Shown piece by piece: positions 30,926-52,121 of a DNA stretch of 64,000 bases. This DNA comes from Haloferax litoreum (GTDB lineage Archaea; Halobacteriota; Halobacteria; Halobacteriales; Haloferacaceae): assembly GCF_009674605.1 (NCBI RefSeq), contig NZ_WKJO01000001.1, positions 1,054,001-1,118,000 on the forward strand, read 5' to 3'. Every line of letters begins with the position of its first letter. Position 1 is the first letter of the stretch. The position numbers and the translations under genes are program-made. The notes beneath the pieces are model-generated. The model saw only the letters and a list, made by a program, of their open reading frames with translations. It did no database searches and had not been told where the DNA came from.

Positions 30926-31945
30926 ATGCAAGGACGCCTCGAAGACGGTGTCGTCCACCTCCCGGGCGACGCCCGCCAGCGGTTCCACGACTCGCGTGGC
31001 TACGGGAGGCCGACCGGTGGGAACGACCTCGATGTCGCGCCCGTCGAGGCCGCGCACCTCCTCTCGCGCGGCGACATCGACGGCGTAGACGGGATGGGCC
31101 TGCGCGAACTCCTCGCGCGAACCGGCACCACGCTCGACTTCGTCGTCTACAAAGACCTCCGCGACCGGGGATTCTACCTCTCGCCCGCACGCGAAGGATG
31201 GCCCGGCGTGGACGACCCGGACGGTGCCGACTTCCTCGTCTACCCGCGCGGCAAAGGTCCGTGGGACGGCGTGGTCGAACACCGAGTTCGAGTCGCCGGC
31301 GAACGCCAGTCGATTCCCGTCTCCTCGCTCGGTGAGACGGTCCTCGCCATCGTCGACGAGGACGGCGACTTGACGTACTTCGACACCGAGGGCTACGTTC
31401 CCGAGGGGTCGGCCACCGAGGACCTCCCGTCTGGCCTCGACGCAGAACTCCTCTCGGACCGGGCGCTCCTGTGGACCGGCGTCGACCAGTTGTACCAACA
31501 GGGATTCTACGGCCAGCGACTCTACGGCCGAAACGCAGACAGCGGTCCGCTCCAACTCTCGCTCCTCGAAGCGGCGTCCCTCGCCTGCCGCGACGCACTC
31601 GATATCGCCGAATCCGATGTCGTCGCTCGCGGCCGCGACGTGGAAGGCGACCGCTTCGACCGCCGTCTCGCGGTCTACTCCGCACTCCGCGAGGCAGGGA
31701 CGGTTCCCAAGAGCGGGTTCAAGTTCGGGTCGGACTTCCGGGTCTACACCGACTTCGAGACGGTGTCGAACCTCTCGCACTCCGAGTTCCTCGTGCGCGT
31801 GGTCACGCCCGACCACACGTTCGTCCCGCGTGACCTCTCGCTGGACGTTCGTCTCGCGGGCGGTGTCCGCAAGCGAATGGTTTTTGCGCTGACCGACGCC
31901 AACGGACAGATAGACTGGCTTTCGGTCAGTCGGCTTACGCCATGA
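30926..31945 (+). CDS. endA: tRNA-intron (splicing) endonuclease
   Basis: The 339-residue enzyme cuts bulge-helix-bulge motifs in precursor tRNA and rRNA. It is the long archaeal form with a duplicated fold, acting as a dimer. The catalytic triad is visible in the C-terminal repeat: Tyr 274 (FRVYTDF), His 285 (LSHSEF) and Lys 316 (VRKRMVF), spaced as in other archaeal EndA proteins. The ATG at 30926 begins MQGRLEDGVVHLPGDARQRF, the usual start; an in-frame ATG at 30818 would overlap the upstream gene. Its stop overlaps the trpS ATG by four nucleotides. Confidence 0.95.
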   Translation: MQGRLEDGVVHLPGDARQRFHDSRGYGRPTGGNDLDVAPVEAAHLLSRGDIDGVDGMGLRELLARTGTTLDFVVYKDLRDRGFYLSPAREGWPGVDDPDGADFLVYPRGKGPWDGVVEHRVRVAGERQSIPVSSLGETVLAIVDEDGDLTYFDTEGYVPEGSATEDLPSGLDAELLSDRALLWTGVDQLYQQGFYGQRLYGRNADSGPLQLSLLEAASLACRDALDIAESDVVARGRDVEGDRFDRRLAVYSALREAGTVPKSGFKFGSDFRVYTDFETVSNLSHSEFLVRVVTPDHTFVPRDLSLDVRLAGGVRKRMVFALTDANGQIDWLSVSRLTP

Positions 31946-33531
31946 CAGACGACGAACCCGCGGAGCGCATCCGCACCGATGGAGGCACAGCAGAGGGAGC
32001 AGACGAAGTCGCTCTCGACCCGTGGGGCTCGTCGACCATCGCCGACTACCGCAAACTGTTCGAGGAGTTCGGCATCGAGGAGTTCGACGAAATCCTCGAC
32101 GAGGTACCGAACCCACACTACCTGATGCGCCGGGGGGTCATCTTCGGCCACCGCGACTACCGCCCGGTACTCGAAGCGATGCGCGACGGTGACGACTTCG
32201 CCGTCCTCTCGGGGTTCATGCCGACGGGCGACCCCCACATCGGCCACAAACTCGTCTTCGACGAGATAATCTGGCATCAACAGCAGGGTGGCGACGCGTA
32301 CGGCCTCATCGCCGACATGGAGGCCCACTCTGCCCGTGGCATCTCGTGGGACGAAATCAACGAGCACAGCCGCGACTACCTGCTGTCGCTCATCGCACTC
32401 GGCTTCGACACCGAGGAGGGCGAACTCTACCGTCAGTCGGACAACGACCGACTCCAGCGACTCGCGTTCGAACTCGGTGGGAAGGCCAACTACTCGGAGT
32501 TCGAGGGTATCTACGGGTTCGACGGTGAGACCAACATTTCGCACATGCAGTCGGTTGTCACCCAGATGGCCGACATCCTCTACCCGCAGTTGGACGACCC
32601 GCAACCGACGGTCATCCCGGTCGGCCCCGACCAGGACCCCCACGTCCGGTTCGCCCGTGACCTCGCCACGCGGATGCGCTTTTTCAAAGTGACCGAGGCG
32701 TTCGCGTCGTTCGAACTCTCGGACGCCGAACGTCCGGTGGTCGCCGCCGCCTACGACGCCCGCGAGGAGTACGCCGAAGACGCCGATGTGCCGCGGTGCG
32801 GTGAAGCGGCCGAGTGGTTAGCCGACGCCGACCTCGACGCCGCCGGTATCCTCGTGGACGAATCCGTCCGCGACTCGGCGGTCGAGAAACTCGAAAACGC
32901 CGGCATGGAACCGCTCCGTCCGCGTATTCGGTTCTTCGCCCGGCAGGCTACCGACGAGGCGTTCGAGGCACTCATCGAGGAAATCGAGGGCGAGAAGCGT
33001 CGGTACGACCAGCACATCGACGCCTTCGACGTCGACGTCGAGGAAGCCGAAGACCTCGCCCGCGAGGTAGAGGCCCACCACGGCGGCTACGGGTTCATCC
33101 CGCCGTCGTCCATCTATCACCGCTTCATGACCGGTCTCACGGGCGGCAAGATGTCGTCGTCCATCCCGGCGAGTCACATCTCGCTGTTGGACGACCCCGA
33201 AGACGGCTACGACAAGGTCAAGTCCGCGACGACCGGTGGCCGCGACACGGCCGAGGAACAACGCGAACTCGGCGGCGAGGCCGACAAGTGCCCCGTCTAC
33301 GAACTGTACGCCTACCTCCTCACCGGCGACGACGACGAACTCGCCAAAGAGGTGTACGACGAGTGTGTCGGCGGCGAACGACTCTGTGGCGGGTGCAAAG
33401 AGCAGGCCGCGACGATGATGCGCGAGTTCCTCGAAGACCATCAGGAGAAGCGCGAAGAAGCGGAAGCAATCCTCGACTCGCTCGATATCGACTTAGAGAC
33501 AGAACGACGGGGCGTCGCCGCCGAACACTAA
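31942..33531 (+). CDS. trpS: Tryptophanyl-tRNA synthetase
   Basis: The 529-residue class I synthetase charges tRNA-Trp. The HIGH-type motif is PTGDPHIGH (94-102) and the KMSKS-type loop is GGKMSSSIP (Lys 403). The first 30 residues are an acidic extension common in haloarchaeal enzymes. CxxC pairs at the C-terminus (CVGGERLCGGCKEQ) may hold zinc. It is translationally coupled to endA through an ATGA overlap. In haloarchaea the precursor of tRNA-Trp carries an intron removed by EndA, so the pairing joins two steps in making Trp-tRNA. Confidence 0.95.
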   Translation: MTDDEPAERIRTDGGTAEGADEVALDPWGSSTIADYRKLFEEFGIEEFDEILDEVPNPHYLMRRGVIFGHRDYRPVLEAMRDGDDFAVLSGFMPTGDPHIGHKLVFDEIIWHQQQGGDAYGLIADMEAHSARGISWDEINEHSRDYLLSLIALGFDTEEGELYRQSDNDRLQRLAFELGGKANYSEFEGIYGFDGETNISHMQSVVTQMADILYPQLDDPQPTVIPVGPDQDPHVRFARDLATRMRFFKVTEAFASFELSDAERPVVAAAYDAREEYAEDADVPRCGEAAEWLADADLDAAGILVDESVRDSAVEKLENAGMEPLRPRIRFFARQATDEAFEALIEEIEGEKRRYDQHIDAFDVDVEEAEDLAREVEAHHGGYGFIPPSSIYHRFMTGLTGGKMSSSIPASHISLLDDPEDGYDKVKSATTGGRDTAEEQRELGGEADKCPVYELYAYLLTGDDDELAKEVYDECVGGERLCGGCKEQAATMMREFLEDHQEKREEAEAILDSLDIDLETERRGVAAEH

Positions 33532-34572: not shown

Positions 34573-34665
34573 ACACGTGCTACTCACGTCGGGAAAATGA
34601 AACTACCGTGTATCGATACCGTGTCACAGACACACTCATAACACTGGGAAAAATCAGTGACGACC

Positions 34666-35844
34666 ATGCACGTCCTCATCGTCGGTGGCGGCGTCGTCGG
34701 ACTCGCCTGCGCGTACGCCCTCACCGACCGCGGTGCCGACGTTACCGTCTGCGAGGCGGGGACACTCGGCGGCGGAAGTACCGGCCGGGCGGCGGGCGGC
34801 ATCCGAACGCAGTTTTCCACCCGGGTCAACGTCGAACTCTCGCTTTCGAGTATCCCCGTCTGGGAGTCGTTCGCCGACGAGTTCGGCGTCGATATCGACT
34901 ACCGCCGGCCGGGATACCTCTTCCTCGCGCGGACCGAAGAGACGGCGTCGGCCTTCCGCGACAACGTCGAGATGCAGACCGAGTTGGGCGCGCCGAGTCG
35001 CGTCCTCGACCCCGAGAAAGCGCGCGCGCACGTCCCCGAACTCCGCACAGAACAGTTCGTCGCGGCAACCTACTCCCCTGCTGATGGCATCGCCGACCCG
35101 CACTCCGCGGTACAGGGATACGCAGACGCGGTCCGCAACGCTGGTGGCGACATACGGAGCAATACACCGGTGACGGGACTCGAACGCGAGGGTGACGGGG
35201 GCGGCGAGAGTGAGGACGACGACAGTCGCGCGTGGCACGTCGAGACGCCGGACGAGACGTTCGAGGCGGATGCCGTGGTCTGTGCGGCGGGCGCGTGGAC
35301 GAAGCGCGTCGCCGCATTCGCCGGTCTCGACCTGCCAATCGCCCCCCGCCGGCGACAAATCGCGGTCGTCGAACCGGACGGTGACCTCCCGGACGACGCA
35401 CCGTTGACAATCGACCTCGACACAGGGTCGTACTTCCGCCCGGAACGGGACGACACCGCCATCGTCGGCGGACACTTCGCCGACTCGGACCCGGACGTGG
35501 ACCCCGACCGGTTCGACGAGTCGATGGACGTCGACTGGGCGGTGGAGGCGACAGAACGCGCCGACGACTGCGCCGCGTACTTCGGGCCGGAGACGAGGAT
35601 TCGCAACGGGTGGGCCGGGTTGTACGCCGTGACGCCCGACCACCACGCGATTCTGGACGAAGTCGCGCCGGGGTTCGTCGTCGCCGCCGGCTTTTCGGGA
35701 CACGGTTTCCAGCACGCACCGGCGACTGGTGAGGCGGTTGCTGACTTCTGTCTCGACGAGAACGAGTGTGACGTGGACGTGTCGGACCTCTCGCTGGACC
35801 GATTCGAGGCGGGCGAGACGCTCACAGAACAGAACGTGGCGTGA
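34666..35844 (+). CDS. FAD-dependent oxidoreductase, DadA/glycine-oxidase family
   Basis: A 392-residue flavoprotein. The dinucleotide loop is GGGVVGLACAYAL near residue 7, GGGSTGRAAGGIRTQ is the segment that follows the FAD loop, and the C-terminal GFSGHGFQHAPATGEAV is the second FAD contact typical of D-amino-acid dehydrogenases, sarcosine oxidase and glycine oxidase. It should oxidise a secondary or D-amino acid. A TATA-like element CTCATAACAC (about 34634-34643) lies 27 nt before the ATG at 34666, so I prefer that over an in-frame GTG at 34657. Divergent partner of the ornithine cyclodeaminase-like gene. Confidence 0.88.
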   Translation: MHVLIVGGGVVGLACAYALTDRGADVTVCEAGTLGGGSTGRAAGGIRTQFSTRVNVELSLSSIPVWESFADEFGVDIDYRRPGYLFLARTEETASAFRDNVEMQTELGAPSRVLDPEKARAHVPELRTEQFVAATYSPADGIADPHSAVQGYADAVRNAGGDIRSNTPVTGLEREGDGGGESEDDDSRAWHVETPDETFEADAVVCAAGAWTKRVAAFAGLDLPIAPRRRQIAVVEPDGDLPDDAPLTIDLDTGSYFRPERDDTAIVGGHFADSDPDVDPDRFDESMDVDWAVEATERADDCAAYFGPETRIRNGWAGLYAVTPDHHAILDEVAPGFVVAAGFSGHGFQHAPATGEAVADFCLDENECDVDVSDLSLDRFEAGETLTEQNVA

Positions 35845-36145: not shown

Positions 36146-36294
36146 TCGTCTTCGTCGCCCCTGAGACGGCAGTGGATAAGAAAGTATCTTATCTCCAACT
36201 GGTGGCTCCTGAATCGACACCCGCCACTGCGCTACTCTCCATGTCGGCGACACAAGCGACGAACGTGCCACTCACTCCCACGATTCCGGAACCG

Positions 36295-36300
36295 TTTTGA
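36295..36300 (+). promoter_or_regulatory. TATA-like element for the pheST leader transcript
   Basis: TTTTGA at 36295-36300, within ACCGTTTTGA, lies 24-29 nt before the ATG at 36324, the spacing expected for a leaderless haloarchaeal transcript. No comparable A/T-rich element exists 25-30 nt before pheS at 36542, where the sequence is GC-rich, so this is the best candidate promoter for the whole leader-pheS-pheT unit. Confidence 0.5.
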
Positions 36301-36323: not shown

Positions 36324-36410
36324 ATGACAACCGAACCTGTCTGTGATGGTGTCAGCGCCACTCGCGAACCGAGCACCTCCGGGTTCGGCTTTTTCTTCCT
36401 GACCGCCTGA
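36324..36410 (+). CDS. Phe-rich leader peptide upstream of pheST (candidate attenuator peptide)
   Basis: A 28-residue ORF, starting ATG at 36324 and ending TGA at 36408-36410. Its last third reads SGFGFFFLTA: Phe codons TTC, TTT, TTC, TTC within five codons, immediately before the stop. It lies 131 nt before the Phe-tRNA synthetase genes and directly at the predicted transcript start. In enteric bacteria the PheM leader peptide of pheST plays this part, slowing the ribosome when charged tRNA-Phe is scarce. The T-run in the Phe codons could alternatively be a plain oligo-U stop signal, but no forward gene ends upstream that would need one. Translation is not proven. Confidence 0.6.
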   Translation: MTTEPVCDGVSATREPSTSGFGFFFLTA

Positions 36411-36450
36411 GGTCGGCGGACTCCGCCCCGGCGCGACCACGCCCGGCGGA
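36403..36450 (+). promoter_or_regulatory. Competing hairpin segments after the Phe leader peptide
   Basis: Four complementary segments follow the Phe codons: CCGCC at 36403-36407 (inside the last leader codons), GGCGG at 36415-36419, CCGCC at 36423-36427 and GGCGG at 36445-36449. Segments 1:2, 2:3 and 3:4 can pair, each excluding its neighbour. The 3:4 hairpin is strongest because TCCGCC and GGCGGA enclose a second stem, GGCG (36430-36433) with CGCC (36440-36443). There is no U-run after it, so if functional it may act on translation or pausing rather than as a bacterial-type terminator. Confidence 0.45.
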
Positions 36451-36541
36451 CGAAACCGACCCCTTCGGTCAGACTCGCCAACGCGGCGAGGCTTCGAAAC
36501 TGCTAACCAACTCCCAGACGGCTAACGCCACAACGAACCAG

Positions 36542-38041
36542 ATGCGACTTCCGGAATCACAGGTCGCGGTGTTGAACGCCGCGAGCGCTACAGACGAACG
36601 GACGATAGAACAGTTGGCGGAGGCGACGGACCTGAAACCAGAGACGGTGACGGGTGCGGCCTTCGACCTGCGCGACGACGGCCTCGTCTCGGTCACAGAG
36701 ACCATCGAGGAAGACGTCGAACTGACCGACGAGGGCGTCGAGTACGCCGAAGGCGGCCTTCCAGAGGTCCGACTCTACCGCGCCGCACTCGACGTCGGCG
36801 ACGGCGATTCGGTCCCGATGGGGCAGGTCATCGGTGCCTCCTCGCTTGGCGGCCCGCAGGTCGATATCGCGCTGTCGAACTTCGCGCGAAAGGGCTACGG
36901 CCACATCGACTCGGGCGAACTCGCGCCCGACGCGGACGCCGACCCCGACGCTGACGAGGAGGCCGCAGCACTCGCGGCCCTCGTCGCCGGCGACAGTGTC
37001 GACGACGCCGTCCTCGACCAACTCGAATCACGCAACCTCGTGGTCCGCCGCGAGCGAACCATCCGCGCCGTCACCCTCACCGACGAGGGCGTCACGGCCA
37101 TGATGGAAGGCGTCGAGGCGGCCGAGACGGTGGACCGTCTCACGCCCGAGATGCTCACCTCCGGTGAGTGGGAAGACGTCGAGTTCACCGAGTACAACGT
37201 CGAAGCCGACGCCCCCGAGGTACGCGGCGGCAAGAAACACATCCTTCGGCAGACGGCAGACCGCGTGAAGGACGTGCTCACCGGCATGGGCTTCGCCGAG
37301 ATGGAAGGTCCGCACGCCGACGCGGACTTCTGGATAAACGACTGCTTGTTCATGCCGCAGGACCACCCGGCACGCACGCACTGGGACCGCTTCGCCCTCG
37401 ACGTGCCGCCGATGGAAGACATTCCCGAGGACCTCATCGACCGCGTCCGCGACGCCCACCTCAACGGCGTCGGCGAAGACGGGGACGGCTACCACTCGCC
37501 GTGGAGCGAGGACTTCGCTCGCGCTATCGCCCTCCGCGGGCACACCACATCGCTGTCGATGCGCTACCTCTCGGGCCACGAAGTCGGCGAACTTGAACCG
37601 CCGCAGCGGTACTTCTCCGTCGAGAAGGTCTACCGCAACGACACGCTCGACCCGACCCACCTGCTGGAGTTCTATCAAATCGAGGGCTGGGTGATGGCGG
37701 AAGACCTCTCGGTGCGCGACCTGATGGGTACCTTCGAGGAGTTCTACTCGCACTTCGGCATCACGGACATCCAGTTCAAACCGCACTACAACCCCTACAC
37801 GGAACCGTCGTTCGAACTGTTCGGCCGACACCCCGAGACGGGCGAACTCATCGAAATCGGCAACTCCGGGATGTTCCGCGAGGAAGTCCTCCGCCCACTC
37901 GGCGTCGAATGCGACGTGATGGCGTGGGGCCTCGCCTTAGAGCGTCTCTTGATGCTCATGTACGGTTTCGACGACATCCGCGACGTTCACGGAACGATGT
38001 GTGACCTCGACCTGCTCCGCGAGACGGAGGTGCTCCGATAA
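36542..38041 (+). CDS. pheS: Phenylalanyl-tRNA synthetase, alpha subunit
   Basis: The 499-residue alpha subunit of the class II enzyme. The N-terminal 200 residues are the archaeal winged-helix region (RLPESQVAVLNAASATDERT, and further helix-turn-helix units) that contacts tRNA. The catalytic domain includes motif 2-like FSVEKVYRNDTLDPTHLLEF and motif 3-like MAWGLALERLLMLMYG. With PheT it forms the alpha2-beta2 enzyme. The ATG at 36542 is preceded by a GC-rich 131-nt stretch without a promoter element, so expression probably depends on the leader transcript starting near 36324. It overlaps pheT by one nucleotide (TAATG). Confidence 0.96.
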   Translation: MRLPESQVAVLNAASATDERTIEQLAEATDLKPETVTGAAFDLRDDGLVSVTETIEEDVELTDEGVEYAEGGLPEVRLYRAALDVGDGDSVPMGQVIGASSLGGPQVDIALSNFARKGYGHIDSGELAPDADADPDADEEAAALAALVAGDSVDDAVLDQLESRNLVVRRERTIRAVTLTDEGVTAMMEGVEAAETVDRLTPEMLTSGEWEDVEFTEYNVEADAPEVRGGKKHILRQTADRVKDVLTGMGFAEMEGPHADADFWINDCLFMPQDHPARTHWDRFALDVPPMEDIPEDLIDRVRDAHLNGVGEDGDGYHSPWSEDFARAIALRGHTTSLSMRYLSGHEVGELEPPQRYFSVEKVYRNDTLDPTHLLEFYQIEGWVMAEDLSVRDLMGTFEEFYSHFGITDIQFKPHYNPYTEPSFELFGRHPETGELIEIGNSGMFREEVLRPLGVECDVMAWGLALERLLMLMYGFDDIRDVHGTMCDLDLLRETEVLR

Positions 38042-39753
38042 TGCCCGTAGTCGACGTTCAACCAGACGAACTGCGCCGCCTGACCGGCCACGAAGAGAAG
38101 TCCGACGAGGAGTTCAAAGACGACCTGTTCGCGCTCGGCCTCGAATTCGAGGGCGTGACCGACGACGGGGCCTTCCAACTGGAGTTCGGCCCGGACCGCC
38201 TCGACCGTCTCTCGGTCGAAGGCGTCGCCCGGTCGCTTCGCTACCAGTACGGCGACGCCCGTGGCGTCTCCGTCCCGAAGACGAACGACCCAGACTGGAC
38301 TATCGTCGTCGACGAGTCCGTCCCGGACGAGCGACCCTACGTCACGGGTGCGGTCATCCGTGGCGTGGACTTAGACGACGCCGCGCTGGACTCGCTCATC
38401 CAACTGCAGGAGAAACTCCACGCGACGATGGGTCGCAAGCGCGCGAAGGGCGCGATTGGCATCCACGACCTGACGATGCTGAAAGGCGACGTGCTCTCGG
38501 AGGACGCCACCGGCAACTCCATCACGTACACGGGAATCGCCCCCGACGGCGACACCTTCGTCGCCCTCGACTCGAACGAGGAACTCACGCCCGCCGAGGT
38601 GCTCGAACAACACGCGACCGGACAGAAGTATGCCGACCTCGTCTCTGAGTACGAGCGTTACCCGGCCATCTACGACGAAATCGGCCTGTTCTCGTTCCCG
38701 CCGGTCATCAACGGCCGTCGGACCGAGGTGTCGACCGACTCGCGTGACCTGTTCGTCGAACTCACCGGCACCGACCAGTGGACCATCGACCGGATGTGCA
38801 CCATCATCTGTTACGCGCTGGCCGCCCGCGGGGCGACCATCGAGCAAGTCGAAGTCCAGTACGAAGACGGCACCGTCGTCAAACCCGACTTCGACGTCGA
38901 CACGAAACACGTCAGCCACGACCGAATCGAGTCGATTCTCGGCGTCGAGTTAGAGATGGACGAGGTCATCGACCTCTTCGAGCGCTCTGGACTCGACGCG
39001 AACGCCGAGTTGGGTGAACAGACAGTCTACGAAGTCTCCATCCCACCGTATCGCGTCGACGTGCTCCACCCGCTGGACCTCGTCGACGACGTGGGTCGGG
39101 CCTACGGCTTCAACGACCTCGAACCGCGCTACCCCGACGTGGGGACGGTCGGGCAGCGTCACGAGCGCTCCCGACTCGAAGACGCCGCCCGCAACAGTCT
39201 CGTCGGACTCGGGTTCGAGGACATGCTCGACTTCCACATGATTTCGGAAGGAGAGAACTACGAGCGCATGGGTATCGAACCCGGCACGGACGTGCTGGGC
39301 GGCGGCGAACCCGCCTCCATCACCGAACCCTACAGTGAGGACTACACCATGCTCCGCACGTGGGTGCTCCCGTCGCTGACGATGGTGCTGGAGAACAACA
39401 CCCACCGCGCGTACCCACAGGACCTCGCCGAAATCGGCCACGTGGCCCACCGCGACGACGACGAGAACACCCGCGTCGCCGAAGCGCGCCACGTCGCCGC
39501 CGTTCTCGCCCGCCACGACGCGACCTACGAGGACGCGAAGGCCCGCCTCGCCGCACTCTGTGGCGACTTCGACGTGGAACTGGAGACGCCAGCGACCGAA
39601 CACCCGTCGTTCATCCCCGGTCGGACCGCCGCCGTCGTCATCGACGGCGAGGAAGTCGGTATCGTCGGTGAACTCCACCCGAAGGTCATCGTCGGACACG
39701 ACCTCGAACTGCCGGTCGCGGCGTTCGAGTTCGACCTGTCGGCGCTGGCGTAA
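38041..39753 (+). CDS. pheT: Phenylalanyl-tRNA synthetase, beta subunit
   Basis: The 570-residue beta subunit, of the shorter archaeal/eukaryotic type without the bacterial extensions. It opens MPVVDVQPDELRRLTGHEEK; a B3/B4 editing-type domain covers the first half (TMGRKRAKGAIGIHDLTMLK). B5 domains follow (VSIPPYRVDVLHPLDLVDDV), then a non-catalytic class II-like core. It provides editing and tRNA binding for PheS. The ATG shares its A with the TAA of pheS, so the two are translationally coupled. A near copy of the last 24 nt of this gene recurs 97 bp downstream. Confidence 0.96.
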   Translation: MPVVDVQPDELRRLTGHEEKSDEEFKDDLFALGLEFEGVTDDGAFQLEFGPDRLDRLSVEGVARSLRYQYGDARGVSVPKTNDPDWTIVVDESVPDERPYVTGAVIRGVDLDDAALDSLIQLQEKLHATMGRKRAKGAIGIHDLTMLKGDVLSEDATGNSITYTGIAPDGDTFVALDSNEELTPAEVLEQHATGQKYADLVSEYERYPAIYDEIGLFSFPPVINGRRTEVSTDSRDLFVELTGTDQWTIDRMCTIICYALAARGATIEQVEVQYEDGTVVKPDFDVDTKHVSHDRIESILGVELEMDEVIDLFERSGLDANAELGEQTVYEVSIPPYRVDVLHPLDLVDDVGRAYGFNDLEPRYPDVGTVGQRHERSRLEDAARNSLVGLGFEDMLDFHMISEGENYERMGIEPGTDVLGGGEPASITEPYSEDYTMLRTWVLPSLTMVLENNTHRAYPQDLAEIGHVAHRDDDENTRVAEARHVAAVLARHDATYEDAKARLAALCGDFDVELETPATEHPSFIPGRTAAVVIDGEEVGIVGELHPKVIVGHDLELPVAAFEFDLSALA

Positions 39754-40022: not shown

Positions 40023-41228
40023 ATGAACGATTATGAACTAACGCGCGAGACGCTGGCAGTCACCCACGGCGAGCGCGGACAGGCTCCTGCGCCCGGTGTC
40101 GAAGACGTCGTCGTCCCGCTTCACCTCTCGTCGACGTACTCGGTTCCCGACGTAGACCCCGATGCGGACCTCGAACTGCTCGACCCGGACGCGGGCGAGT
40201 ATCTCTACTCGCGGTTGTCGAACCCCACGCGAAACGCACTGGAGCATCGGTTGGCGGCACTCGAAGGTGCGGAGCACGCCCTCGCGTTCGTGTCGGGGAC
40301 GGCGGCCATCACGGCGACGATGACGGCGATGATTCGCCCCGGTGACCACATCGTCGCGTTCGAAGACCTCTACGGCGGGACGAAGACGATGCTCAACCGC
40401 CTCTTCGCCGAGCGACTCGACGTGGACGTGACGTTCGTCGACGCGACGGACGTTGCCAACGTCGAAGACGCCATGCGGGAGGAGACGCGTCTCATCTGGA
40501 TGGAGACGCCGACGAACCCGCTCATGCACCTCTGCGACATCGAGGCTATCGCCGCCATCGCCGACGAGTGGGACACCATCTTCGGCGTGGACAACACCTT
40601 CCTCAGTCCGTACTTCCAGAACCCGCTGTCGCTCGGTGCCGACGTGGTCGTCCACAGCACGACGAAGTACCTCAACGGCCACTCCGACTCCATCGGCGGT
40701 GCCGTCGTCACCAACCGCGACGACATCATGGACGAACTCGCGTTCCTCCAGCGTGTCGGCATGGGGTCGATGCTCTCGCCGTTCGACTCCTACATGACCC
40801 TCCGCGGTATCAAGACGCTCCCACTGCGGATGCGCCAACACGAGGAGAACGCGATGGAGATTGCGCGGTTCCTCGAATCCCACGACGCCGTCACGCGTGT
40901 CCTCTACCCCGGCCTCGAATCCCACCCACAGCACGAACTCGCCGCCCGGCAGCAGTCCGGGTTCGGTGGCGTGCTCTCGTTCGAACTCGACACCGACCTC
41001 GACGGGACGGCCGAGTTCCTCGGCCGCCTGCGCGAGTTCCCCCTCGCAGTGAGTCTCGGCGGTGTCGAGAGCCTCATCGAGCACCCGGCGACGATGACGC
41101 ACTCGCCACTCGCTCAGACCGAACGGGACCGTCTCGGTATCTCGAACTCGCTGCTTCGCATGTCCGTGGGCGTCGAACACGTCGACGACTTGCTCGCTGA
41201 CCTCGACGCGGCGCTAGCGTCGGTCTAA
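40023..41228 (+). CDS. Cys/Met metabolism PLP enzyme (cystathionine gamma-synthase / gamma-lyase type)
   Basis: A 401-residue fold-type I PLP enzyme. The PLP Lys is Lys 215 in VHSTTKYLNGHSD, the phosphate contact is FVSGTAAITATM, and YSRLSNPTRNALEHRLAALE contains the Tyr and Arg that reach PLP from the neighbouring subunit. The SLGGVESLIEHPATMTHS end binds the substrate carboxylate. The family includes cystathionine gamma-synthase, cystathionine gamma-lyase, methionine gamma-lyase and O-acetylhomoserine sulfhydrylase; the sequence does not decide. A CCTTTA element lies about 30 nt before the ATG. Confidence 0.9.
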   Translation: MNDYELTRETLAVTHGERGQAPAPGVEDVVVPLHLSSTYSVPDVDPDADLELLDPDAGEYLYSRLSNPTRNALEHRLAALEGAEHALAFVSGTAAITATMTAMIRPGDHIVAFEDLYGGTKTMLNRLFAERLDVDVTFVDATDVANVEDAMREETRLIWMETPTNPLMHLCDIEAIAAIADEWDTIFGVDNTFLSPYFQNPLSLGADVVVHSTTKYLNGHSDSIGGAVVTNRDDIMDELAFLQRVGMGSMLSPFDSYMTLRGIKTLPLRMRQHEENAMEIARFLESHDAVTRVLYPGLESHPQHELAARQQSGFGGVLSFELDTDLDGTAEFLGRLREFPLAVSLGGVESLIEHPATMTHSPLAQTERDRLGISNSLLRMSVGVEHVDDLLADLDAALASV

Positions 41229-46760: not shown

Positions 46761-48233
<1,473 letters not shown>

Positions 48234-48275
48234 AACGACCGAGACCACCCCGACGGGGTGGCTCACACGCGATCT

Positions 48276-48325
48276 TCCGAGTTCGAACACCATCCGTTCG
48301 GACACCTTAGAACTACTAGGGCTAA
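48276..48325 (+). other. 3' strand of the 16S rRNA processing stem
   Basis: Pairs with 46631-46680 (see that entry). It ends 3 nt before the tRNA-Ala gene, so cleavage here separates pre-16S from the tRNA-Ala side of the precursor. Confidence 0.85.
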
Positions 48326-48328
48326 CAC

Positions 48329-48400
48329 GGGCCCATAGCTCAGTGGTAGAGTGCCTCCTTTGCAAGGAGGATGCCCAGGGTTCGAATCCCTGTGGGTCCA
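48329..48400 (+). tRNA. tRNA-Ala (anticodon UGC)
   Basis: A 72-nt cloverleaf. Acceptor GGGCCCA pairs with TGGGTCC, the D arm is GCTCAGTGGTAGAGT, the anticodon arm is CCTCC-TTTGCAA-GGAGG with TGC at 48361-48363, and the T arm is CAGGGTTCGAATCCCTG. The discriminator is A and no CCA is encoded. Position between 16S and 23S is the standard place in haloarchaeal rRNA operons. Confidence 0.98.
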
Positions 48401-48560
48401 TGGTAAGCAATGTTCAACCCTCGTTGAATCGTGCCCCTTAAGTGTGGGACGGCGATACGAAGGAATGAGCATTGACGACTGATGCACCAACCCGCGCAAG
48501 CGTGGTTGGGAAGGGTCGAAAACGCGCCAGAAGACTACTGGGCGTTTGATGAAACCGTGT

Positions 48561-48602
48561 GTACGTGCAATCCAGGCGTCCACTGGACCCGTTCTCCGGG
48601 TC
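48561..48602 (+). other. 5' strand of the 23S rRNA processing stem
   Basis: GTACGTGCAATCCAG (48561-48575) is complementary to 51562-51576, and TGGACCCGTTCTCCGGGTC (48584-48602) to 51536-51553 with one bulged base. The unpaired bases between the two helices make the bulge-helix-bulge expected for excision of pre-23S. Confidence 0.88.
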
Positions 48603-48618
48603 ACAGTGACTATATCAA

Positions 48619-51525
<2,907 letters not shown>

Positions 51526-51535
51526 TACGCACTGA

Positions 51536-51576
51536 GACCCGAGAACGGGTCCAGGCGCAAACTGGATTGCACGTAC
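51536..51576 (+). other. 3' strand of the 23S rRNA processing stem
   Basis: GACCCGAGAACGGGTCCA (51536-51553) and CTGGATTGCACGTAC (51562-51576) pair with 48584-48602 and 48561-48575 to enclose 23S rRNA. Confidence 0.88.
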
Positions 51577-51632
51577 GTTAGTCAGACGCCACCGATATTG
51601 GTATCACAATGGTTCGATTCCATTGATCGGAA

Positions 51633-51754
51633 TTAAGGCGGCCAGAGCGGTGAGGTTCCACCCGTACCCATCCCGAACACGGAAGTTAAGCTCACCTGCG
51701 TTCTGGTCAGTACTGGAGTGAGCGATCCTCTGGGAAATCCAGTTCGCCGCCCCT
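51633..51754 (+). rRNA. rrf: 5S ribosomal RNA
   Basis: A 122-nt sequence with TTAAGGCGGCCAGAGCGGTG at the 5' end and the complementary GTTCGCCGCCCCT at the 3' end. CCCGTACCCATCCCGAACAC is the conserved 5S loop region. It follows 23S by about 107 nt in the same operon. Confidence 0.98.
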
Positions 51755-51768
51755 ACTCATACTTCACC

Positions 51769-51802
51769 GAAAGCCCACCGGACACGCGTCCGGTGGGCTT
51801 TC
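51769..51802 (+). terminator. rRNA operon terminator-like hairpin
   Basis: A perfect 15-bp inverted repeat, GAAAGCCCACCGGAC (51769-51783) and GTCCGGTGGGCTTTC (51788-51802), with the 4-nt loop ACGC, ends 15 nt after 5S and is followed by TTCATTTA. Confidence 0.85.
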
Positions 51803-52044
51803 TTCATTTACGGCGAGTGGATTCGCCACTCGCGTGCGGTTCGGTGCCCGTGAGCCGCAGCACTCGCGGGTCCGTCACTCGCGACTGGAACGAGTGAGCC
51901 GGTCGGTGCTGTGAGCGGCAGCACACGACGCCTGCAGGTACCACCCACCACGAGTGAGACAGTACCCCTTGAACGGGGGTTAGAACACCACACGAACCCT
52001 CACACCGTCAGGCTTAAGCACCAGACAGCGATACGATAAACTGC
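51803..52044. other. Spacer with a hairpin and an imperfect direct repeat
   Basis: Between the rRNA terminator and tRNA-Cys there is no gene. A hairpin pairs GCGAGTGG (51813-51820) with CCACTCGC (51826-51833). A block of about 23 nt, TCGGTGCCCGTGAGCCGCAG and onward (from 51841), recurs with few changes at about 51903-51924. GGCTTAAGC near 52011-52019 is a likely promoter for tRNA-Cys, about 30 nt before it. Confidence 0.5.
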
Positions 52045-52121
52045 GCCAAGGTGGCAGAGTCCGGCCCAACGCATCCGCCTGCAGAGCGGAACCCCCGCCG
52101 GTTCAAATCCGGCCCTTGGCT
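52045..52121 (+). tRNA. tRNA-Cys (anticodon GCA)
   Basis: Acceptor GCCAAGG pairs with CCTTGGC, the anticodon arm is TCCGC-CTGCAGA-GCGGA with GCA at 52081-52083, and the T arm is GCCGGTTCAAATCCGGC. The variable region is a little long. Discriminator T, no CCA encoded. It lies after the rRNA terminator with its own TATA-like element; a tRNA-Cys after the rRNA operon is usual for haloarchaea. Confidence 0.97.

Follow-up and report, generated by a model that had tools for sequence, protein, structure and literature searches.

Amino acid attenuation through a stalled ribosome is textbook bacterial regulation. The E. coli pheST attenuator has the leader peptide PheM, and in the E. coli tna leader a stalled ribosome hides the Rho loading site, with tnaC sensing free tryptophan through the nascent chain. 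For archaea, the portions of the papers available to us describe a T5C insert that ended 95% of transcripts in a Haloferax volcanii reporter, where one hairpin site gave 59% (PMC7237163), the binding of aCPSF1 to U-tracts with cutting downstream (PMC8716108), and FttA, whose preferred substrate is RNA that is U-rich at -30 to -36 and whose cut falls 22 nt behind the 3' end (PMC11616081). In the same portions, mutual exclusion of archaeal ribosomes and FttA on nascent RNA is treated as an open question (PMC8116511, PMC11616081), and the available part of the uORF4u paper mentions upstream-ORF attenuation in archaea in general terms only (PMC10219788). A literature search on archaeal leader peptides and attenuation, with most subscription papers outside its coverage, found no leader of an archaeal aminoacyl-tRNA synthetase; a Phe-sensing leader of the kind described here has apparently not yet been described in archaea.

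Like the E. coli pheST leader with PheM, the haloarchaeal leader is a short ORF with a Phe cluster before the same operon, and a rise in PheRS would be expected when Phe-tRNA is short. Unlike it, the leader is archaeal, predicted to be leaderless and built with one stem inside the ORF and different hairpins, and it has neither a hairpin-plus-U-run terminator past the ORF nor an evident terminator/antiterminator switch. The mechanism that we prefer would resemble the E. coli tna leader in that a ribosome near the leader stop hides a loading site for a termination factor; however, the leader would respond to scarce Phe-tRNA, and the factor would be FttA/aCPSF1, which is unrelated to Rho. The same U-tract sequence is found in haloarchaeal T5C terminators and in aCPSF1/FttA termination, but known T5C terminators lie mainly at gene 3' ends, as far as the available parts of these papers go (PMC7237163, PMC8716108, PMC11616081), whereas the leader tract lies in a coding frame ahead of an operon.

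A Phe-rich leader ORF upstream of pheS and pheT

The window (the whole stretch of DNA that was analysed, 64 kb) carries the tract TTCGGCTTTTTCTTC at 36384-36398. The sequence-only reading of this DNA had described it as Phe codons that double as an archaeal terminator-type T-rich tract, in a place where no plus-strand gene would need a terminator, and these descriptions hold. The tract reads Phe-Gly-Phe-Phe-Phe in frame and belongs to the 3' end of an ORF of 28 codons (36324-36410), which is followed 131 nt later by pheS-pheT; the tract includes T5C, as CTTTTTC at 36389-36395, which matches the haloarchaeal T-stretch terminator motif and the insert that was efficient in the reporter (PMC7237163, in the part available). 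Between the tract and the plus-strand FAD oxidoreductase gene (34657-35844), which ends about 540 nt upstream, lies the closest upstream ORF, encoded on the minus strand (from 35879 to about 36145, or to 36271 with a GTG start). The Phe block TTYGGNTTYTTYTTY occurs a single time in the window with both strands counted, and TTTTTC alone occurs 14 times, so the T-run alone is not rare. The Phe block exceeds chance, as it is found again before pheS throughout the class; for the T-run this holds only weakly. The features of the locus are as follows.

36287 to 36299, plus strand: P1, predicted promoter of the leader, BRE- and TATA-like sequence CGGAACCGTTTTG; predicted start at or next to the leader ATG (leaderless)
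36324 to 36410, plus strand: putative Phe leader peptide ORF, 28 codons from ATG to TGA, translation MTTEPVCDGVSATREPSTSGFGFFFLTA before the stop; relatives before pheS in 64/81 loci
36331 to 36339, plus strand: 5' arm of hairpin H1, CCGAACCTG, codons 3-6 (covariation and window MFE fold)
36380 to 36388, plus strand: 3' arm of H1, CGGGTTCGG, including the first Phe codon of the cluster (covariation and window MFE fold)
36389 to 36398, plus strand: Phe codon run and U-rich unpaired linker, CTTTTTCTTC, holding T5C; Phe kept, T-run variable
36411 to 36461, plus strand: hairpin H2, outer stem GGTCGG/CCGACC, internal loop CGGAC/CGAAA, inner stem TCCGCC/GGCGGA (covariation and window fold)
36495 to 36508, plus strand: P2, possible second promoter near pheS, CGAAACTGCTAACC; suggested by a related motif in other loci
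36542 to 38041, plus strand: pheS, phenylalanine--tRNA ligase alpha (NF003210, 589.9 bits)
38041 to 39753, plus strand: pheT, archaeal phenylalanine--tRNA ligase beta (TIGR00471, 451.7 bits)

The window's pheS and the H. profundi pheS share 99% identity. Elsewhere in the window, trpS (31942-33531) begins right behind another coding frame and has no Trp leader, and a complete archaeal rRNA operon (16S, tRNA-Ala, 23S, 5S, tRNA-Cys; 46761-52121) lies about 5 kb downstream of the gene at 40023-41228. Pattern searches of the window's genome gave 7 places for the T5C-type pattern, 6 of which are not leaders, 13 for the Trp pattern, none of them a short leader, and 0 for the His pattern.

For the discovery set, 80 named haloarchaeal pheS loci, collected by protein similarity, and the window (81 in total) were searched upstream for Phe-rich short ORFs. 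The ORF rule gave 65/81; one weak candidate (L011, with a GTG start 347 nt from pheS) was dropped, which left a leader in 64/81 loci and 17 loci without one, L011 counted among the latter. Typical peptides are MASEP...GFGFFFAR, MAPES...GFGFFFAR and MALER...AFGFFFA. A covariance model of the leader matches 120/145 genomes of the class, from 51/58 genera, at E ≤ 0.01, a number somewhat above the true one since it includes some chance matches: pheS lies downstream at 70/70 of the stronger places fetched (30 loci and 40 stretches) and at only 9/20 of the weaker or secondary ones, the remaining 11 of which look like chance. Among the 79 fetched places with pheS, 77 yield a leader by the ORF rule, 70 of them not identical to earlier ones. 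These 70 were combined with 62 discovery leaders (L011, L047 and L078 dropped) and reduced at 85% identity to 87 non-redundant leaders. Set A1 comprised 54/65 leaders after removal of near-duplicates (L001, L003, L005, L006, L007, L009 and L064) and divergent leaders (L011, L047, L063 and L078), and 42 were used in set A2. No ATG-started Phe leader was found upstream of pheS in 20 genomes of other classes (out of 101); two TTG ORFs upstream of pheS in these 20 genomes look spurious and were rejected. On a quick pheS tree, 8 changes in the presence of the leader were counted; parsimony counts do not distinguish gains from losses, but the pattern is compatible with a feature that is old in haloarchaea and was lost several times.

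Phe codons are concentrated at the end of the ORF. At least two follow the H1 arm in 86/87 non-redundant leaders, Phe is nearly absent earlier (4/1724 codons), and the stop lies 0-4 codons past the last Phe. In six leaders (L017, L027, L036, L042, L061 and L066) one Phe position is Pro, Leu, Val or Ala, and most of these keep a T-run or at least two Phe codons. The gap from the stop to pheS is 87 to 245 nt in 139/142 leaders, with L133 (333 nt), L011 (347 nt) and L119 (676 nt) as exceptions, and no conserved pairing between the gap and the pheS start was seen across the leaders. The L119 locus (G123 C1 2640300-2643000) contains two leader-like matches, separated by about 950 nt, and the N-terminal part of pheS recurs in several partial copies; it looks like a local duplication in which one leader decayed.

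In a 57-sequence profile, the motif CGNAACGNTTTTG is fixed at -37 to -26 from the leader ATG. Its pattern is present in 53/64 leaders and starts exactly at -37 in 47 of these; we take it to be a BRE/TATA-like element, and the fixed spacing to the ATG predicts a leaderless transcript. Nearer to pheS, a CGGAACNGNTAAC-type motif occurs within 90 nt upstream of the gene in 60/81 loci by a simple pattern, including loci without a leader; the window's own copy is a variant outside the stricter pattern behind this count. A CGGAACNGNTAACTGAC-like motif is often found 36-45 nt ahead of the pheS ATG (L018, L022, L024, L028, L029, L035, L060 and others). The pheS-proximal motif, with its relatives, is possibly a second promoter or an RNA element, and as a promoter it might bypass the leader.

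Comparison with the components of a bacterial attenuator gave a mixed result. A short ORF with cognate codons clustered near its end lies upstream of the operon (in the 64 loci above, with translation predicted), and the operon charges the cognate amino acid, as pheS and pheT are equivalogs. An intrinsic terminator (hairpin plus U-run) was not found in the 62 spacers between leader ORF and operon, the only hairpin plus U-run being inside the ORF. For these reasons, we say that the leader works like, rather than is, a bacterial trp/his/phe-type attenuator. No Rfam cis-regulatory family, T-box and riboswitches included, matched at gathering thresholds; the best weak match (E 6.3) was on the other strand.

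Hairpins on either side of the Phe run

H1 pairs ORF nucleotides 8-16 with the nine nucleotides directly before the Phe run. Across 54 sequences, 96.9% of its cells are paired and 6/9 pairs have changed on both sides. The arm core CGAA/TTCG is nearly invariant, and the arms co-vary around it, as in GGACCC/GGGTCC, GAACGC/GCGTTC and GACC/GGTC. The encoded peptide changes in matched pairs (SEP/GFG, LER/AFE, SGP/GSG, TDP/GVG), and Ser or Val can stand in for the first Phe of the cluster provided that the opposite arm changes with it, so it is the pairing that is kept and not the residue. When 5' parts were swapped between leaders, a score of at least 17 was reached in 319/435 cases versus 83/87 native ones; swapped pairs still score because the arm core is common to the leaders, which makes the covariation counts the better test, and the 4/87 native leaders that fail include ones with an anchor or start misplaced by the script. 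The 3' end of H1 lies 1-6 nt before the T-run in 44/49 leaders with at least four T, and H1 strength is equal with and without a T-run (p 0.97), that is, there is no compensation between the two. The sequence-only reading had suggested that no hairpin may be needed. This is not supported, given a covarying stem directly next to the run, whose strength is the same whether or not a T-run is present and which is kept even where its own Phe codon is replaced.

H2 begins 3-12 nt past the leader stop in the 51 leaders with its motif. In 54 sequences, 87.0% of the cells of the outer stem and 86.5% of those of the inner stem are paired, and 8/10 pairs have changed on both sides, including 5/5 in the inner stem. 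The two stems enclose an internal loop with G.A, G.A and A.G juxtapositions, each position in 49/54 sequences. This loop (CGGYGGAY / YGAAACCG) has C.C or U.U beside these juxtapositions; it is similar to stable, purine-rich internal loops and might be a protein-binding site. The H2 motif was found in 51/64 leader loci, 1/17 leaderless loci and 0/240 coding controls, and the sole non-leader locus with it, L054, keeps a frameshifted leader. On the pheS tree, co-occurrence of leader and H2 gave 7 independent pairs and was not significant. The leader-like sequence of L054, about 180 nt upstream of pheS, has intact H1 arms and H2 motif, with the frame shifted before the Phe run; this locus is from a MAG, and an assembly error is possible.

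For H1 and H2 taken as a whole, 0/500 shuffles reach the observed paired percentage or covariation score; when the 3' partners are slid by 1-3 columns, pairing drops from 91.6% to 24-52%. The single-sequence folding energy is unusual in the window (z -3.45); no unusual energy was found in six relatives (z -1.61 to 0.66). In the window MFE fold, the two hairpins do not overlap, and the Phe run CUUUUUCUUC is the unpaired linker between them. A possible pairing of the H1 3' arm with the H2 3' strand is not mirrored when the arm changes, as H2 keeps CGAAACCG, and an unsystematic look around H1 and H2 found no mutually exclusive antiterminator pairing.

The T-run within the Phe codons

In 38/87 non-redundant leaders the longest T-run is three or fewer, and the Phe codons stay. 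How far runs of at least five T exceed expectation depends on the codon use taken as reference. In the first test, against pheST codon use, 34/55 leaders had such a run (null 2.3), and against pheS codon use the count was 45/87 (null 7.8). Against the leaders' own codon use, the null for the same 45/87 rises to 30.6 (sd 4.2), with 0/2000 simulations reaching 45, in simulations that ignore kinship among leaders. The excess over the leaders' own relaxed codon use is thus about 1.5-fold at most. Selection on the T-run as the main signal was considered and rejected, as the excess against pheST codon use shrinks to this level and 38/87 leaders have no run of four. The share of TTT in the run (64/233 codons) is the same as that of T in two-fold Y-ending loop codons (36/137; Fisher p 0.90), so TTT is as frequent as relaxed codon use gives. 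A preference for TTT ahead of a T was not clear (43/137 versus 21/96, Fisher p 0.14), and T-ending codons before the run Phe did not differ from loop codons (p 1.0). The T-run also changes 18 times among 64 leaders on the pheS tree; within Haloferax, H. larsenii (L008) and H. elongans (L009) are without it.

The window's T5C tract is therefore real and of terminator type, but with a labile T-run, relaxed TTT use and an H1 independent of the T-run it is not the conserved core. Conservation lies in the Phe codons, H1 and H2. A T-run of at least four was found in 0/62 spacers between leader and pheS. The Phe run is accordingly the only U-rich site before pheS, and U-dependent termination, if this is how control is exerted, could take place only there.

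Candidate mechanism and rival explanations

We consider it highly probable that this is a Phe-sensing leader of pheST as such. The whole chain, in which it would be a cis-acting Phe-tRNA sensor and a ribosome stall would prevent premature termination before pheST, we hold to be evenly balanced between right and wrong: the sensor part is well supported by sequence, and the readout is what we infer. The opening steps are strongly indicated, namely that the P1 transcript would begin at the leader ATG and that the first ribosome would translate a peptide of mostly 23-30 codons with its sole Phe cluster at the end. With Phe-tRNA short, the ribosome would stall on the Phe run. Its footprint would take in the U-rich linker as well as the 3' arm of H1, holding H1 open and hiding the linker, with H2 beyond free to fold. 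The hidden linker could then be used neither by aCPSF1/FttA nor as a hairpin-plus-U terminator, and RNA polymerase would proceed into pheST. With Phe-tRNA plentiful, the ribosome would get to the nearby stop and depart, and H1 would close, also blocking the 5' end against further leaderless initiation. The U-rich linker would be exposed between two hairpins, leading to an early end of transcription; H2 may slow or position the polymerase, and a separate promoter near pheS would supply basal expression.

A ribosome covers about 12-15 nt beyond its A site. Parked on the Phe run, it would accordingly keep the H1 3' arm open with H2 out of reach; at the stop codon, it would reach H2. For the U-run at 36390-36394, FttA geometry would have the polymerase at about 36424-36430 and the cut at about 36402-36408, with the stalled ribosome then on the U-run. 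Since the polymerase leaves the tract before a ribosome can sense the Phe codons, only a site that is used in the RNA once the polymerase has moved on would be open to control by the ribosome. The claim of the sequence-only reading that ribosome shielding sets termination thus survives in part: a stalled ribosome would sit on the tract and the FttA geometry fits, whereas release inside the tract would precede Phe sensing. Against the whole chain stand the 38/87 leaders without a strong T-run, where UUCUUCUUC would have to suffice. Other points against it are that the unsystematic look turned up no mutually exclusive antiterminator pairing, that the folding energy stands out in the window and not in six relatives, that 17/81 loci do without the leader, that a possible P2 could bypass it, and that the link between leader and H2 is not significant on the tree.

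Several other explanations were weighed. If H1 and the adjoining U-rich run formed an intrinsic-like terminator that is prevented by leader translation as such, through a ribosome on the H1 5' arm close to the 5' end, FttA would be dispensable and Phe supply would act indirectly. The close spacing of H1 to the T-run suggests such a hairpin-type attenuator, as does the 59% termination with a hairpin upstream of the 3' end in H. volcanii (PMC7237163, available part), but RNA polymerase would be past the U-run before the ribosome meets the Phe codons, the conserved Phe run would be left without a role, and H1 strength does not depend on the T-run; we regard it as unlikely. That the oligo-T tract alone terminates, with the ribosome shielding it and the hairpins uninvolved, is the model of the sequence-only reading, which put it forward as perhaps the simpler mechanism. 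The strong covariation of H1 and H2 argues against it, and so do the absence of a run of four T from 38/87 leaders, its 18 changes on the tree and a TTT share no different from that of loop codons. That it is the simpler mechanism is not supported, and considering that T5C terminates with 95% efficiency in H. volcanii (PMC7237163, available part) and that runs of at least five T are about 1.5 times the relaxed expectation, we give it a small chance, smaller than that of the hairpin-type attenuator.

Control could also come after transcription, with read-through constant and a stalled or departed ribosome altering how the U-rich linker is cleaved, how stable the mRNA is or how pheS is translated. 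The stop-to-pheS gap is too variable and too free of conserved pairing to the pheS start to favour this, and no Shine-Dalgarno sequence is recognisable by eye at the window's pheS; nonetheless, aCPSF1/FttA is an endoribonuclease with a preference for U-rich RNA (PMC8716108, PMC11616081, available parts), and H2 and the long spacer could act after transcription, so we rate this explanation as improbable, on a par with the hairpin-type attenuator. Binding of a dimeric regulator to the inverted repeat CGAACC...GGTTCG in DNA, with the ORF incidental, would account for the nearly invariant arm core; it is very improbable, as the arms change jointly to other letters, which keeps pairing and not a binding sequence, and the in-frame Phe run is left unexplained. 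A small functional protein made from the ORF has its conserved reading frame to recommend it, yet the middle of the peptide is unconserved and pairing and Phe codons account for both conserved ends, and we give this the least credence of all.

The most specific form of the termination model is that a ribosome stalled on the leaderless Phe leader of haloarchaeal pheST hides a U-rich loading site from FttA/aCPSF1. It would then be the first archaeal amino-acid attenuator, with an origin separate from the bacterial systems and an RNAP II-like termination system as its target; H1 would serve as the off-state lock and H2 as a companion element. We propose this tentatively, as a reading that may well be wrong. 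As a class-wide example in the genetically tractable Haloferax, the leader would make exclusion between ribosome and FttA on nascent RNA directly testable.
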